DNA from: Verrucomicrobiia bacterium
Lineage (GTDB): Bacteria > Verrucomicrobiota > Verrucomicrobiia > Limisphaerales > JAOAIM01
Assembly (NCBI GenBank): GCA_026414705.1
Contig: JAOAIM010000008.1
Coordinates: 11,533 to 47,581 of the forward strand
Reading direction: 5' to 3'
Length of the DNA stretch: 36,049 bases
Part shown: positions 29,069 through 36,049 of the stretch, piece by piece
Numbering within the stretch: the stretch's first letter is position 1
Layout: every line of letters starts with the position of its first letter
Made by a program: the position numbers and the translations under genes
The notes under the pieces: model-generated
Seen by the model: only the letters and a program-made list of their open reading frames with translations
Database searches by the model: none
Told to the model about the DNA's origin: nothing

Positions 29069-29479
29069 GGTGAATCTCTTGTGAGCCTGATCGCAAACTG
29101 ACCTCGCAGCAAGAAAAACGGACGCTCCTCAAACGCCCGGTCTGCGCGCGAGTCGCCCATCGTCCCCGGCTTGCTGACCTTTGAAGCTCCCGGCCATGAC
29201 GAGCGTTGAACGGAGGCACTGCGCGGCGCGTGGACGCGGTGTTTCAGGTTTTGATGCCCGCCACGGCGTGCACGCCGGCCAACAGGGCGCACGCGACACC
29301 AAAAGCGGTTCGGCTGGCACAAGGACTCGCCGCCGGGGTTTCCAATCCCCGGCTTGACGAGCGCAAAAGGCTTGACCAAGCTGGCGCAAATTGGCCCGGC
29401 CCGAAGTTCACGAGACCGTCCAGCGTGGTGCCGAGGCGGCCCGCGCTGGCGTCCGTCGGGCAAGCATCACAGCACGTGC
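29069..29479. other. Intergenic region between divergent phosphatase and DUF4914 genes
   Basis: About 410 bases without a gene that I can support. The palindrome CCGGGG (29333-29338), loop, CCCCGG (29347-29352) is the only clear structure. Promoters for both neighbours should be here; no strong -10/-35 pair stands out. Confidence 0.5.
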
Positions 29480-31387
29480 ATGATTGTAACGGCAGAAGTT
29501 GAACCGAAGTTGCGACCGGAACTGAAGCGCTTCAACGCGCCGCCGGAGGCGATCGAGATTTTCACCCGGTGCCGGAGTGTTGTCGTTCCGCACAGCATTC
29601 AGGAACTGGTGGACATGGCCTGCGGGGGGCCGGACCGGGACTACTACGAGGTGGCGTATGACGTGCCCGGTCGCGGTCGTTTTGTGGAGGCGACTGTCGC
29701 GCGGGTGCGCAACGGTGTGGTGGCCAACTACACCGAGCCGTATATGCGGCGGCGCGACCCGGACTGCCTGGTGATCGGTGACGATCAACCCACCAACAAG
29801 CCCACCTTTCAGCAGCGGTTTGGCCGGCCATTTGAGCCGGTGCGACTCGAAACCTTCCGGTGGTTGCAGGAGCAGGACCTGGCGGCGTTTGCGTTTGTGG
29901 CCGGCGGCGTGGGGCTGGGATTGGACGCGCTGGTGGTGGCGCCGGCCAACGCCGGATTTTTCGCCCTGGGGCTGGCCCTGCTTCAGGGCATGGTGCCGCC
30001 CGAACAGTTGCCACCCAACTTCACCCCGCGCGCGATCATTTACGTCGCGCCCGTTTTCCGGCATACCCATTTCAACGGCAAACAGGTGGTGGTGCATCGC
30101 CGCTGCGACGGGTTGCACGAGTTGTTTTCCTACAATTTGTATCCGGGCCCCAGCGCCAAGAAGGGCGTCTATGGCGTGCTCATCGGGCTGGGCGAGCGCG
30201 AGGGCTGGGTCACGAACCATTGCTCCACCGTCCAGGTCATCACCCCTTACGACAACGTGGTCACGATCATGCACGAGGGCGCAAGCGGCGGCGGCAAAAG
30301 CGAGATGCTCGAAAGCGCGCACCGCGAACCGGACGGTCGGCTTTTGCTCGGCGAAAACATCATCAGCGGTGAGCGCCGTTACCTGCAAATTCCCCGCTCG
30401 TGCGATCTGCGCCCGGTGACCGATGACATGGCGCTGTGCCATCCATCCTTGCAGGAGGGCAGCGGCAAGCTCACGCTCGTTGATGCCGAAAGCGCGTGGT
30501 TCGTGCGCGTCAACCACATCCAGCATTACGGCACGGACATTTACCTGGAAAAGCTCACCGCCGAACCGCCCGAACCGTTGCTGTTTTTGAACATTGACGC
30601 CGTGCCGCGCAGCCGCGCGCTCATCTGGGAACACACCCAGGACGCGCCCGGCAAACCGTGTCCCAACCCGCGCGTCATCATCCCGCGCCGGGTGTATCCG
30701 GGGGTGGTTGAAGGGCCGGTGGTGGTGGACATCCGCAGCTTTGGCGTGCGCACGCCGCCGTGTACGCGCGAAAAACCCACCTACGGCATCATCGGGTTGT
30801 TTCATCTGCTGCCCCCGGCGCTGGCGTGGCTCTGGCGACTGGTCTCCCCGCGCGGGCACGACAATCCCAGCATCGTCGAAACCGAGGGCATGAGCAGCGA
30901 AGGTGTCGGTTCCTACTGGCCCTTTGCGACGGGTCGGCGGGTGGACCAGGCCAACCTGCTGTTGCGCCAGTTCGCCGAGAGCACCCGCATGCGCCAGATT
31001 CTTTGCCCCAATCAATACGTCGGCGCCTGGCGCGTGGGCTTCATGCCGCAATGGATCGCTCGTGAATACCTGGCCCGACGCGGCGTCGCGCGTTTCCGTC
31101 CCGATCAGTTGCGCCCGGCCCGCTGTCCGTTGCTCGGTTACACGATGCACCAGTTGCAGGTCGAGGGCAGCTTCATCGCCCGCTGGTTTTTGCAGGTGGA
31201 AACGCAGCCCGAGGTCGGCGAGGAAGGCTACGACCAGGGGGCCGCGATTCTGCGGAGGTTTTTCCACCGCTGCGTGAAAGATTTTCTGGAGCCCGATCTC
31301 GACCCGCTCGGTCGGGAAATCATCACCTGCTGTCTGGACGACGGCACGGTGCACGACTACGAACGGCTGTTGCCCGGCGGCGAGTGA
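29480..31387 (+). CDS. DUF4914 family protein (PEPCK-like P-loop)
   Basis: A 635-residue cytosolic protein matching DUF4914 as I know it: [24 protein letters not shown] (57-80), [20 protein letters not shown] (83-102) and the nucleotide-binding loop [12 protein letters not shown] (265-276). The loop and its place in the fold recall ATP-dependent PEP carboxykinase, whose superfamily DUF4914 is thought to join; it lacks known substrate data. Further conserved-looking parts are [15 protein letters not shown] and [21 protein letters not shown] use the ATG at 29480 because the 42 residues upstream are Arg/Ser-rich without family character. It is upstream of the SAM riboswitch but has its own transcription unit. 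A phosphotransferase on a small acid is the likely chemistry, by inference. Confidence 0.82.
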
Positions 31388-31491
31388 GCGCGGCCGCCGG
31401 TGGCCGCGACCTCGGCGCAGCCTTCGACTGCCGGGTTTCAGACGGCATTTGGGGAGGAAAAAACCTTCCGCCCGGCGGGCCAAAAAAATTT

Positions 31492-31497
31492 TTGACA
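31492..31497 (+). promoter_or_regulatory. Possible -35 element of the riboswitch operon
   Basis: A consensus TTGACA hexamer in an AT-rich stretch about 50 bases before the aptamer. A -10 box is unclear: the position 17 bases downstream reads CAATCT, and a TATAAC at 31536-31541 lies too close to the aptamer start for its P1 stem to be transcribed whole. Confidence 0.4.
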
Positions 31498-31543
31498 AGG
31501 TGGTGTCCCCAAATCAATCTATCCGCATCCGTTGATATAACGG

Positions 31544-31659
31544 TCTCATGTAGAGTGGCTGAGGGACTGGCCCGATGACGCCACGGCAACCGGTTGAAGG
31601 CGCAGCTTCAACGTCCAGGTGCCAATTCCAGCCCCGGCGGGTGCCGGGGAAAAATGAGA
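31544..31659 (+). promoter_or_regulatory. SAM-I (S-box) riboswitch aptamer
   Basis: All S-box landmarks are present. P1 pairs TCTCAT (31544-31549) with ATGAGA (31654-31659). The core reads GAGGGACTGGCCCGATGA (31561-31578), followed by CGGCAACC. P3 pairs GTTGAAG (31593-31599) with CTTCAAC (31606-31612). The joining element is GGTGCCAATTCC, and P4 pairs CCCCGGC (31632-31638) with GCCGGGG (31643-31649). It binds S-adenosylmethionine and normally turns off genes of methionine synthesis or uptake when SAM is high. The gene it controls here is annotated by homology as threonine synthase, which is the surprise. Confidence 0.95.
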
Positions 31660-31677
31660 AGCGTGCGCAAATCGTGC

Positions 31678-31708
31678 AGCCCCTTCTCTCCATGAGGCGG
31701 GGCTTTTT
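31678..31708 (+). terminator. Riboswitch expression-platform terminator
   Basis: AGCCCC (31678-31683) pairs with GGGGCT (31699-31704), with an inner CTC/GAG pair, followed by TTTTT. An alternative pairing is available: GAGAAG (31656-31661, the 3' side of P1) with CTTCTC (31683-31688), which would break both P1 and the terminator. SAM binding therefore stabilises P1, frees the terminator and stops transcription about 60 bases before the ATG. Confidence 0.88.
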
Positions 31709-31767
31709 GTTTGCCCCGCGCCGGAGGGCTGCGTCGGGGGTGAAGCGATTTGCGAAAAAGTCGAGCT

Positions 31768-33027
31768 ATGGAAAAACACGATGGTTTCATGAGGGCACTC
31801 AAGTGCCGCGAGTGCGGGCGGGAATACCCGCTGACCGCGACGCATGTGTGCGAGTTTGATTTCGGGCCGCTGGAGGTGGCCTACGATTACGAGCGGATCA
31901 AGCGCGTGCTCACGCGCGCCGCGATTCAGTCCCGGCCCAAGTCCATGTGGCGTTACCGTGAATTGCTGCCGGTGGCGCACGAGCCAACCGTGGGCCTGCA
32001 GGTGGGCTTCACGCCGTTGATCCGGGCTGACCGGCTCGCCAAAAAACTCGGCATCCGCGAAGCGTGGATCAAAAATGACGCGGTCAATTTCCCCACGCTC
32101 TCGTTCAAGGACCGCGTGGTGAGCGTGGCGTTGAGCCGCGCGCGCGAGCTGGGCTTTGATACCGTGGCGTGCGCCTCCACGGGCAACCTGGCCAACGCGG
32201 TCGCCGCCAACGCCGCCGCCGCCGGCTTGAAAGCCTACGTCTTCATCCCGGCGGACCTCGAACAGGGCAAGATTCTCAACTCGCTCATTTACGGCGCGCA
32301 CGTCATCGGCATCAAGGGCCATTACGACGAGGTCAACCGGCTCTGCGCCGAGATCGCGGGCAAGTTCGGCTGGGCGTTTGTGAACGTGAACATGCGGCCC
32401 TACTACGCCGAAGGCTCGAAGAGCTTCGCCTTCGAGGTCGTCGAGCAACTTGGCTGGCGCGTGCCGCAACACACCGTCGTGCCGATGGCCTCCGGCTCGT
32501 TGCTCACCAAAATTCACAAAGGCTACCAGGAATGCATCAAGCTGGGCCTGGCGCCCGAAACGCCCTACCGCGTCCACGGCGCGCAGGCCACCGGCTGCTC
32601 GCCCATCTCCACCGCGCACAAGGCGGGGCTGGACTTTTTCAAGCCCGTCAAGCCCGACACCATCGCCAAGTCGCTGGCCATCGGCACGCCGGCCGACGGC
32701 TTCTACGCGCTGCGCGCCATCAAGGAAACCGGCGGCGCGGCCGATGACGTGACCGACGACGAAATCCGCGACGCGATGCGGTTGCTGGCCGAGACCGAAG
32801 GGATTTTCACCGAGACCGCCGGCGGCGTGACCGTGGGCGTGACGCGCAAACTCATCGCCTCGGGCAAAATCGCGCCCCAGGATTCGGTCGTGATCTGCAT
32901 CACCGGCAACGGCCTCAAGACTCTCGACGCGGTCAACGGTTACCTGGGCAAACCGCGCGAAATCCGGCCCAGCCTCAGAGAATTTGAAGCGCTCATGGCG
33001 CAGGAGGAAAAGGCGTTGAAAAGTTGA
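31768..33027 (+). CDS. Threonine-synthase-like PLP enzyme under SAM control (possible homocysteine synthase)
   Basis: A 419-residue fold-type II PLP enzyme. The Schiff-base lysine is Lys114 in TLSFKDR, the phosphate/substrate loop is ACASTGNLANAVA, and MASGSLLTKIHKG and ITGNGLKTLD follow. The N-terminal zinc-ribbon-like region has Cys13, Cys16 and Cys28, but the fourth position is Asp (CEFDFGPLE). Threonine synthase converts O-phosphohomoserine to threonine. A SAM-I riboswitch and the two genes behind it, a sulfur carrier and a NIL protein, fit methionine synthesis better, so I infer that this paralogue may replace the phosphate of O-phosphohomoserine with sulfur to give homocysteine. The ATG at 31768 is chosen over a TTG at 31750. 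Ordinary threonine synthase remains possible. Confidence 0.85.
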   Translation: MEKHDGFMRALKCRECGREYPLTATHVCEFDFGPLEVAYDYERIKRVLTRAAIQSRPKSMWRYRELLPVAHEPTVGLQVGFTPLIRADRLAKKLGIREAWIKNDAVNFPTLSFKDRVVSVALSRARELGFDTVACASTGNLANAVAANAAAAGLKAYVFIPADLEQGKILNSLIYGAHVIGIKGHYDEVNRLCAEIAGKFGWAFVNVNMRPYYAEGSKSFAFEVVEQLGWRVPQHTVVPMASGSLLTKIHKGYQECIKLGLAPETPYRVHGAQATGCSPISTAHKAGLDFFKPVKPDTIAKSLAIGTPADGFYALRAIKETGGAADDVTDDEIRDAMRLLAETEGIFTETAGGVTVGVTRKLIASGKIAPQDSVVICITGNGLKTLDAVNGYLGKPREIRPSLREFEALMAQEEKALKS

Positions 33028-33098
33028 ATCGGTCGCGGTCCGCGCGCGGGCCGTTTGCGCTCCGACGCGCCGCCAACCCCCGAAAGGATTCCAGCACT

Positions 33099-33374
33099 AT
33101 GGCCAAAACCGTTCGCATTCCGACACCGTTGCGAAAGCTCACCAACAACCAGGAACTGGTCGAGGTCAACGGCTCGACCGTCGGCGAAGCGCTCGCCGAG
33201 TTGCAACAGCGTTTCCCCGGCATCCAGGAGCGGCTGCTCGATGAGAAGGGCGAGGTGCGCCGTTTCGTCAATGTCTACGTCAACGAGGAGGACATCCGCT
33301 TCCTCCAGAACCAGCAAACGCCGCTCAAGGACGGCGACGAAATCAGCATCATCCCCGCCATCGCCGGCGGTTGA
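33099..33374 (+). CDS. ThiS/MoaD-like sulfur-carrier protein with C-terminal Gly-Gly
   Basis: A 91-residue beta-grasp protein. It starts at the ATG at 33099 (MAKTVRIPTPLRKLTN), preceded by GAAAGGA at a suitable distance. GSTVGEALAELQQRFPGI (about 25-42), FVNVYVNEEDIRF and the tail GDEISIIPAIAGG are typical of MoaD/ThiS proteins, whose terminal glycine is activated as an adenylate and then made a thiocarboxylate that donates sulfur. It ends exactly at Gly-Gly, so no protease is needed to expose it. No E1-like activating enzyme (MoeB/ThiF) is adjacent; one must come from elsewhere. It lies 71 bases after the threonine-synthase-like gene, in the SAM-riboswitch unit, which points to a sulfur donor for homocysteine and not to thiamin or molybdopterin. 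Confidence 0.9.
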   Translation: MAKTVRIPTPLRKLTNNQELVEVNGSTVGEALAELQQRFPGIQERLLDEKGEVRRFVNVYVNEEDIRFLQNQQTPLKDGDEISIIPAIAGG

Positions 33375-33427
33375 GCGCGCACCAGCGCGACATTGACGCG
33401 GCGGCCAAACCCTGAATCCTTGAAGCG

Positions 33428-33715
33428 ATGCAACGCGCCGCCAAAAAACCCAAACCGACCGACCCGAACCAACCCGAACGGATGCGGTTGTGGCTGATGT
33501 ATCCGCAACGGCTCATCCAAAAACCGCTCATCTGGGAGGTCGGCCACCGCTTCAAGGTCGTCACCAACATCCGCCAGGCCAGCGTCACCGACGAAATCGG
33601 CCTGGTGTGCCTGGAACTCGACGGCCCGCGCGCGGAAGTCAAAGCCGCCATCAAGTGGCTCGAAAAAACCGGCGTCAAGGTCGAGCCCGTCGAAATTAAC
33701 GTCATCGAAAGCTGA
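33428..33715 (+). CDS. NIL-domain protein
   Basis: A 95-residue protein with one NIL domain (about 18-92). LMYPQRLIQKPLIWEVGHRFKVV is followed by TNIRQASVTDEIGLVCLELDGP and AAIKWLEKTGVKVEPVEI, the small ferredoxin-like fold found at the end of methionine-importer ATPases (MetN), where it senses methionine, and in proteins of homocysteine formation in anaerobes. The N-terminal 15 residues are Lys/Pro-rich. It is the third gene of the SAM-riboswitch unit, 53 bases after the sulfur carrier. No ferredoxin domain is fused here, so an electron-transfer role is not supported; a binding or regulatory role in methionine/homocysteine synthesis is inferred. Confidence 0.88.
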   Translation: MQRAAKKPKPTDPNQPERMRLWLMYPQRLIQKPLIWEVGHRFKVVTNIRQASVTDEIGLVCLELDGPRAEVKAAIKWLEKTGVKVEPVEINVIES

Positions 33716-33738
33716 GGTTTCCCGGTCGCCGGGCTTTC
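33707..33738 (+). terminator. Possible terminator after the NIL gene
   Basis: A compound hairpin: outer GAAAGC (33707-33712) with GCTTTC (33733-33738), inner CCCGG (33721-33725) with CCGGG (33729-33733). It begins at the stop codon. The T run is short, so the strength is uncertain. Confidence 0.4.
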
Positions 33739-33938
33739 ATCTGGCAGGACACCGCGCGCGCACGGCCACGCGACTCGTTTCGCACAGTTGGCGCGAGGCA
33801 AAACCCCCTCACTCCACGCCCACGCGCAGCGACGCTCGGACGTTCCAACATTTCAGCAGTTTCGCGACTCAGCCGCCCGCGCGTGCTCCGTCCATGGCCA
33901 GACCTCGGTGCTGGGTCGGCCGGCCAAATCGCGCCGGC

Positions 33939-36036: not shown

Positions 36037-36049
36037 CTGTCTCTTATAC
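36037..36049. other. Residual Nextera/Tn5 mosaic-end adapter at the contig end
   Basis: The final bases CTGTCTCTTATAC are identical to the start of the transposase adapter CTGTCTCTTATACACATCT used in Nextera libraries. It sits exactly at the sequence end, so it is best read as an untrimmed sequencing artefact. Confidence 0.92.

Follow-up and report, generated by a model that had tools for sequence, protein, structure and literature searches.

In Mycobacterium tuberculosis, the CysM/CysO/Mec+ system carries out carrier-based cysteine synthesis. In Wolinella, a thiocarboxylate route comprising HcyS, HcyF, HcyD and MetY, with a PF01053 enzyme acting on O-acetylhomoserine and a JAMM peptidase, was reportedly described by Krishnamoorthy and Begley in 2011. 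Here, we describe a gene cassette that resembles both systems and differs from each. It lies on the plus strand of a 36,049-nt stretch of contig JAOAIM010000008.1 (the whole of which we call the window) from a Verrucomicrobiia bacterium (GCA_026414705.1, hereafter its own genome), and consists, in this order, of an S-adenosylmethionine (SAM)-I riboswitch, a threonine-synthase-like pyridoxal 5'-phosphate (PLP) enzyme, a ThiS/MoaD-type carrier protein and a NIL domain protein (31543–33715; all coordinates are positions in the window). We consider it probable that the cassette performs the committed step of methionine synthesis, by means of a threonine-synthase-derived homocysteine synthase that would use O-phosphohomoserine, probably receive its sulfur from the carrier and be subject to feedback by both SAM and methionine.

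With the Wolinella pathway the cassette shares a small carrier ending in Gly-Gly, proposed as the sulfur donor to a homoserine derivative. Unlike that pathway, which relies on a PF01053 MetY and the JAMM peptidase HcyD, it contains a relative of threonine synthase, and neither MetX, nor a full-length PF01053 protein, nor a Mec+-like JAMM peptidase was found in its own genome. The likeness to CysM/CysO/Mec+ lies in the carrier, whose profile finds 3DWG chain C as its top Protein Data Bank (PDB) match, and in a PLP enzyme of fold II adjoining it, but the enzyme here belongs to the threonine-synthase and not to the cysteine-synthase family, and a riboswitch and a NIL protein are added. From threonine synthase (TIGR00260) the enzyme retains the fold and the motif of the Schiff-base lysine, whereas it differs in its separate clade, a rewritten substrate loop and the replacement of GNAGN by ASGSL. 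Finally, the aptamer and terminator form the platform known from SAM-I riboswitch operons (RF00162), although the cassette was not met as a target of this riboswitch in the literature searched.

Operons of ThiS, JAB, E1 and cysteine synthase genes have been catalogued (Iyer 2006, PMC1779556); the available part of that paper lists CysM/CysO/Mec+ as operon class 4d, and the words “methionine” and “homocysteine” are absent from it. Another NIL-associated route employs DUF39/HcyBio, according to excerpts of PMC5764234 and PMC12068725 an L-aspartate semialdehyde sulfurtransferase that works with a NIL-ferredoxin protein; in the excerpt of PMC12068725, the NIL domain of the methanogen homocysteine enzyme is reported to bind methionine and to regulate activity. 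The present cassette would likewise place a NIL domain in homocysteine synthesis, but its NIL protein lacks the ferredoxin part. A step of the cassette's type was not seen in the available parts of GapMind (PMC7311316), the riboswitch survey PMC12452182 or PMC4239095, and no paper was recognised as describing the cassette in the literature searched, which excluded most subscription papers. The accessible part of Price et al. 2018 (PMC5764234) states that at least one further homocysteine pathway awaits discovery and names Aquifex, Pyrolobus and Acidimicrobium.

Results

Composition of the cassette and its riboswitch

A preliminary description of the window had recognised an S-box aptamer with terminator, a PLP enzyme, a 91-residue carrier ending in Gly-Gly and a NIL protein on one strand, and matches to Rfam, Pfam and TIGR models bear this out. 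The features are as follows:

31543–31660, plus strand: SAM-I (S-box) riboswitch aptamer (RF00162, 84.4 bits, E 9.8e-19)
31656–31688, plus strand: predicted antiterminator, 31656–31661 pairing with 31683–31688 (fold of 31650–31700, z −1.37)
31678–31712, plus strand: predicted intrinsic terminator, stem 31678–31704 and U-tract (−16.9 kcal/mol, z −2.92)
31768 or 31789–33027, plus strand: threonine-synthase-like PLP enzyme, proposed homocysteine synthase (TIGR00260, 288 bits)
31789–31893, plus strand: N-terminal segment of the enzyme with an invariant CxxC and a further Cys, zinc-ribbon-like by eye (alignments)
33099–33374, plus strand: ThiS/MoaD-type sulfur carrier, 91 aa, Gly-Gly codons at 33366–33371 (PF02597, E 4.7e-21)
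33428–33715, plus strand: stand-alone NIL domain protein, 95 aa, proposed methionine sensor (PF09383, E 1e-10)

The aptamer matches RF00162 over its full length (model positions 1–108; gathering score 44.4 bits), and it is the sole Rfam match above gathering in the window and the sole RF00162 match in its own genome. According to the fold prediction, the antiterminator overlaps bases of the terminator, so that the two would be mutually exclusive, as in S-box platforms. The terminator was not picked up by a simple terminator scan, in which loops were limited to 3–8. Dozens of genomes show these parts in the identical order, so that the cassette is more than a chance arrangement.

The enzyme exchanges with MetX in the order

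We analysed 97 genomes, that is, the own genome and 96 others of the same order (genomes and loci are designated below by G and L numbers). Matches to TIGR00260 were divided into three score classes read from the list and cut at 171 bits, with the cassette enzyme at ~265–290 bits. The enzyme is complete in 59 genomes and present in 62 when three incomplete copies are added, one split over two frames (G026), one fragment (L098 in G054) and one fragment at a contig end (G063). A search for RF00162 across the order, with stricter filters at which weak matches were lost, returned 61 SAM-I riboswitches in 60 genomes, 59 of them located just 5' of the cassette enzyme. The spacing to the enzyme is 247–338 bases in 57 cases, and those of G026 and G063 were placed by reading the contigs. 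The riboswitch of G073 is at a contig end, and that of G023, the second SAM-I there, lies away from the enzyme on the minus strand (C57:5489–5602, L211). The L211 stretch also holds an ATPase-like open reading frame (ORF) and, at its far end, a metK-like gene (TIGR01034, 86.6 bits, below cut-off). In the same stricter search, none of the 24 genomes that have MetX and lack the enzyme yielded a SAM-I riboswitch. Each of the 59 genomes in which the enzyme is complete has a NIL match, and 56 of the 67 NIL matches fall within 3 kb 3' of the enzyme.

MetX was counted above 190 bits; the curated cut-off of the model, 500, was not reached in any genome, controls included. By this measure MetX was found in 7/62 genomes with the enzyme versus 24/35 without (Fisher P 1.0e-8), in 4/44 versus 14/18 when only high-quality genomes were considered (P 2.3e-7), and in 2/39 versus 17/23 with one genome per family (P 1.8e-8). 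A MetX-like match of 109 bits in G018, which has the enzyme, was not counted, as the protein scores 514 bits for another family, PRK06489. Proteins of the PF01053 family above 100 bits followed the same direction (14/62 versus 23/35 genomes, P 6.2e-5). In contrast, a second thrC-type match (>171 bits) stands beside the enzyme in 52/59 genomes (41/43 of high quality), and 31/38 genomes without a complete enzyme also have a thrC-type match. Because another thrC-type gene is present in these 52 genomes, the enzyme is not simply the threonine synthase, and the two sets of counts together indicate that it exchanges with MetX and not with ThrC. The preliminary description had assigned the cassette to methionine synthesis and had let it bypass MetX; the first idea gains support from the near-exclusive riboswitch linkage and from MetH neighbours in six loci (see below), the second from the MetX counts and from the own genome, in which MetX, MetA and HcyBio gave no match. 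MetA and HcyBio (PF01837) were missing from all 97 genomes.

The own assembly comprises 3.94 Mb in 390 contigs and is rated 90% complete, and the window reaches a contig end. It contains seven weak PF01053 matches (MetB/C/Y type), the best with 38 bits over a partial profile and above the Pfam cut-off of 27. The two best were ruled out as MetB/C/Y, being DegT/DnrJ sugar aminotransferases, and no full-length gene of this type was found in this 90%-complete genome. Six PALP proteins are encoded: the window enzyme, cysteine synthase A (TIGR01139, 440 bits), a CysM-like protein, a TrpB-like protein, TrpB, and a fragment nearest to hydroxyaspartate/threonine dehydratases. TIGR00260 was counted three times in this genome, and the window enzyme alone scored high enough for listing.

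The enzyme forms a separate clade with a changed substrate loop

The enzyme passes the threonine-synthase family cut-off (288 bits against TIGR00260, cut-off 167) and narrowly misses the closer model NF006050 (295.8 versus 303 bits), whereas it reaches only 40 bits with TIGR01138 (cysM), outside the cysteine-synthase family. Of its two possible ATG starts, 31768 and 31789, the latter is favoured by the relatives. The Schiff-base lysine is K107 (codon 32107–32109), the Lys of an SFKDR motif common to cassette and ordinary enzymes, and C6, C9 and C21 are invariant among 29 and among 25 aligned members. A match of PF05810 (NinF) to the N-terminus (27.6 bits, cut-off 27.5) was taken as a chance match to the Cys-rich segment.

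We compared 68 cassette enzymes with 20 ordinary threonine synthases, and in a quick tree the cassette enzymes formed their own clade with a support of 100. The ordinary substrate loop, NSxNPxRxEGQK, is replaced in them by an NxNxRPxYxEGSK-like sequence with an invariant Arg203; throughout the 68 as against the 20, Ser is exchanged for Asn201, Asn for Arg203 and Arg for Tyr206, and none of them retains the conserved ordinary loop. By alignment, the changed residues correspond to Ser155, Asn157 and Arg160 of Thermus threonine synthase, a loop that we take to bind the substrate phosphate. In addition, GNAGN, presumably the loop that binds the phosphate of PLP, has become ASGSL, and ASTGNT has become ASTGNL. 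The best structural matches of an AlphaFold model of the enzyme (predicted local distance difference test, pLDDT, 88) are all threonine synthases, headed by the SAM-bound Arabidopsis enzyme 2c2b (Z 47.0, 2.7 Å over 402 residues); the Thermus enzyme 1uim follows at Z 39.1, and the first match with another title is CapA2 (Z 37.1).

The carrier and NIL proteins

The carrier has a free C-terminal Ala-Gly-Gly, and G90 and G91 are invariant in 24 aligned carriers. Its profile matches 3DWG chain C with 100 bits (title “9.5 kDa culture filtrate antigen”), which we take to be M. tuberculosis CysO, and MoaD and SAMP proteins rank lower; its NCBIfam name would be SAMP1 (64.5 bits). In several loci the carrier ORF at first looked split, but this proved to be an artefact of alternative frames, since intact carrier genes were seen when the frames of 15 loci were read. 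The NIL protein scores 41.8 bits with PF09383 (gathering 24), and its top PDB match is the NIL domain of MetN (3dhx, E 8.6e-05). In L161, L164 and L173, carrier and NIL are a single fused protein (L161 and L173 scanned with profiles).

Distribution beyond the order

A wider scan with an alignment of 29 enzymes found at least 580 stretches encoding a relative, of which 80 loci were kept. These include Verrucomicrobiota, Kiritimatiellae (Kiritimatiellota), Mariprofundaceae with the isolate Mariprofundus micogutta, Dadabacteria, other delta-type lineages and a Nitrospira-titled genome. A script counted a carrier 3' of the enzyme in 75/80 loci and a NIL protein in 54/80. Of the remaining five loci, L141 has an intact, divergent carrier, L158 ends 101 bases past the enzyme, and the other three (L134, L136 and L140) have interrupted carriers. 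The related loci L137, L139 and L141 have intact divergent carriers ending in PAFAGG and no NIL match. As a control, none of the 20 best-scoring ordinary thrC loci had an Rfam match above gathering, a carrier or a NIL protein.

A scan of 14 more distant loci showed the riboswitch in 11 of them; it was not found in L164, L168 and L173. In L164 and L173, the ORF 5' of the enzyme is, presumably, that of an Rrf2-type regulator-like protein (by recognition); in these two loci, the carrier-NIL fusion is accompanied by ThiF, a JAMM peptidase and a CysM-like gene downstream. Across 39 loci (L144–L182), CysM-like neighbours occur in nine and ThiF-like neighbours in seven; L164 and L173 carry a JAMM peptidase gene, and L161 has a gene that resembles nitrite/sulfite reductase. 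MetH follows NIL on the same strand in L147, whereas in L168, L171, L172, L175 and L176 it is encoded on the opposite strand (confirmed for L147 and L172). Within the order, a JAMM-like ORF (64 bits) in L215 (G019), at a distance from the cassette, immediately follows an ORF that is cysteine-synthase-like by recognition. This suggests that a few genomes of the order possess CysM/Mec+ as a system in its own right.

Surroundings of the cassette in the window

Directly 5' of the cassette, a DUF4914 protein is encoded on the same strand (29453–31387; PF16260, 1043 bits), and a sulfatase family protein (PF00884; 33939–35414, minus strand) is convergent with it. In a consensus scan of 31380–33900, a single terminator-like site was seen, 3' of the NIL gene, and no site of the sigma-70 type. 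Close to the contig end, 35494–35749 contains imperfect direct repeats of 43–44 bases with ~174-base spacing and inverted arms. The last 13 bases (36037–36049, the contig end) are, we assume, the start of the Tn5/Nextera mosaic end and a possible adapter remnant; the 19-base form of the mosaic end had no match at the contig end, where the sequence stops short of 19 bases.

Discussion

In plants, methionine and threonine arise from a common phosphorylated precursor. We propose that the same holds for the bacteria that carry the cassette, although by fold II chemistry. That homocysteine is the product is well supported by independent genomic evidence, and with rather high confidence we regard the enzyme as a homocysteine synthase. 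O-phosphohomoserine is the likely substrate, since MetX is missing from 55/62 genomes with the enzyme and MetA from 97/97. The substrate would form an external aldimine on PLP and, in the manner of threonine synthase, shed the phosphate at its gamma carbon. The resulting beta,gamma-unsaturated intermediate would then accept sulfur at gamma, instead of water at beta, and thereby yield homocysteine. Gamma addition of sulfur to such an intermediate is the PLP chemistry of cystathionine gamma-synthase, which we apply to this enzyme by inference. The nucleophile would probably be the carrier with its terminal Gly-Gly in thiocarboxylate form. Sulfur delivery by the carrier is plausible, and we are inclined, with some reserve, to see in it the main sulfur donor. 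Homocysteine would have to be set free by hydrolysis or thiol exchange, because a JAMM protein above 60 bits occurs in only 5/97 genomes. At high SAM, the riboswitch would favour the terminator and transcription would stop, and the NIL protein would probably bind methionine and damp the activity of the enzyme or the carrier.

Several observations weigh against this proposal. The Fisher tests ignore phylogeny; enzyme and MetX occur together in seven genomes, and enzyme and PF01053 (>100 bits) in seven more. Neither enzyme nor MetX was found in 11/97 genomes, four of them of high quality (two of the 11, G002 and G032, show a NIL match, and a third, G073, a riboswitch). For two of the 59 complete enzymes (G079 and G092), no riboswitch was found in the search, and of 27 genomes outside the order that carry loci of this kind, seven, including Mariprofundus micogutta, have a full-length PF01053 protein, with a 76-bit fragment in G111 and nothing above 40 bits in 19. 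Release of the carrier-homocysteine adduct also lacks an obvious catalyst: Prok-JAB passes the Pfam cut-off in 37/97 genomes, mostly in frames of RadC size, and the sole JAMM match of the own genome (20.9 bits) is a RadC protein, with no peptidase of the Mec+/HcyD type found there. Moreover, neither ThiF nor, among the PALP proteins, a second threonine synthase was found in that genome. The absence of ThiF may be an assembly gap, since ThiF is matched in 95/97 genomes, and the same is possible for thrC; the 90% completeness perhaps also accounts for the missing JAMM peptidase. Of the two findings that the preliminary description had named as jointly speaking against it, a sole threonine synthase and complete conventional met genes, the own genome thus shows the first, in an incomplete assembly, and not the second, as no conventional met genes were found.

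The carrier itself is interrupted by an in-frame stop in L134, a frame break in L136 and both in L140, beside an intact enzyme and riboswitch and with no NIL match. This suggests that the enzyme can also draw on free sulfide or a different carrier, and leads to the alternative that the same homocysteine synthase uses O-phosphohomoserine and free sulfide, with carrier and NIL as losable helpers for low sulfide and regulation. We regard this as unlikely, even though the scarcity of clear Mec+-like JAMM proteins would agree with it and a plant phosphohomoserine sulfhydrylase activity is mentioned in the available part of PMC5120207. Against it, the carrier follows the enzyme in nearly all loci and is fused to NIL in three, it is CysO-like, and in other phyla the cassette is accompanied by ThiF and JAMM genes.

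The enzyme might instead be a threonine synthase that acquired SAM control as a means of balancing the branch point at O-phosphohomoserine, so that the link to methionine would be regulatory only. It does pass the TIGR00260 cut-off, its top structural match is SAM-bound, and its own genome offered no second thrC, but with another thrC-type gene in 52/59 genomes, exchange with MetX, a sulfur carrier as companion and alteration of the loop that is reported to bind the substrate phosphate in Thermus, we consider this quite improbable.

Threonine synthase is said to be the ancestor of cysteate synthase (Graham, 2009), and together with CapA2 as the first structural match not titled threonine synthase this would suit a different product, either cystathionine, made with cysteine from O-phosphohomoserine, or some other sulfur amino acid, for instance a sulfonate of the kind that cysteate synthase makes. 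We consider this very improbable; the SAM riboswitch and MetH neighbours indicate methionine, and we rejected cystathionine mainly for want of the PF01053 lyase that it requires, which is not found above 100 bits in the own genome or in 48/62 genomes with the enzyme. The DUF39 route was likewise rejected, HcyBio being found in none of the 97 genomes.

With a homocysteine synthase fed by the carrier, the cassette would be a novel form of amino acid synthesis by protein thiocarboxylates, and its enzyme would represent a new clade. On balance, and somewhat cautiously, we favour a widespread, unrecognised pathway in Verrucomicrobiota, Kiritimatiellota, Mariprofundaceae, delta-type lineages and a Nitrospira-titled genome, in which a fold II enzyme derived from threonine synthase would join O-phosphohomoserine with sulfur from a carrier thiocarboxylate, under feedback by SAM through RNA and by methionine through NIL. 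If true, this would close the gap left in the methionine pathway of many Verrucomicrobiota, and of other lineages, in which MetX and MetB/MetY-type enzymes were not found. It would also mean that a threonine synthase was recruited to sulfur chemistry, and would extend protein-thiocarboxylate amino acid synthesis to phosphorylated homoserine. The annotation of the cassette genes, which would currently be named threonine synthase and SAMP1, would have to be corrected, and judging from the genomes compared here, “threonine synthase” labels may conceal a widespread route to methionine.

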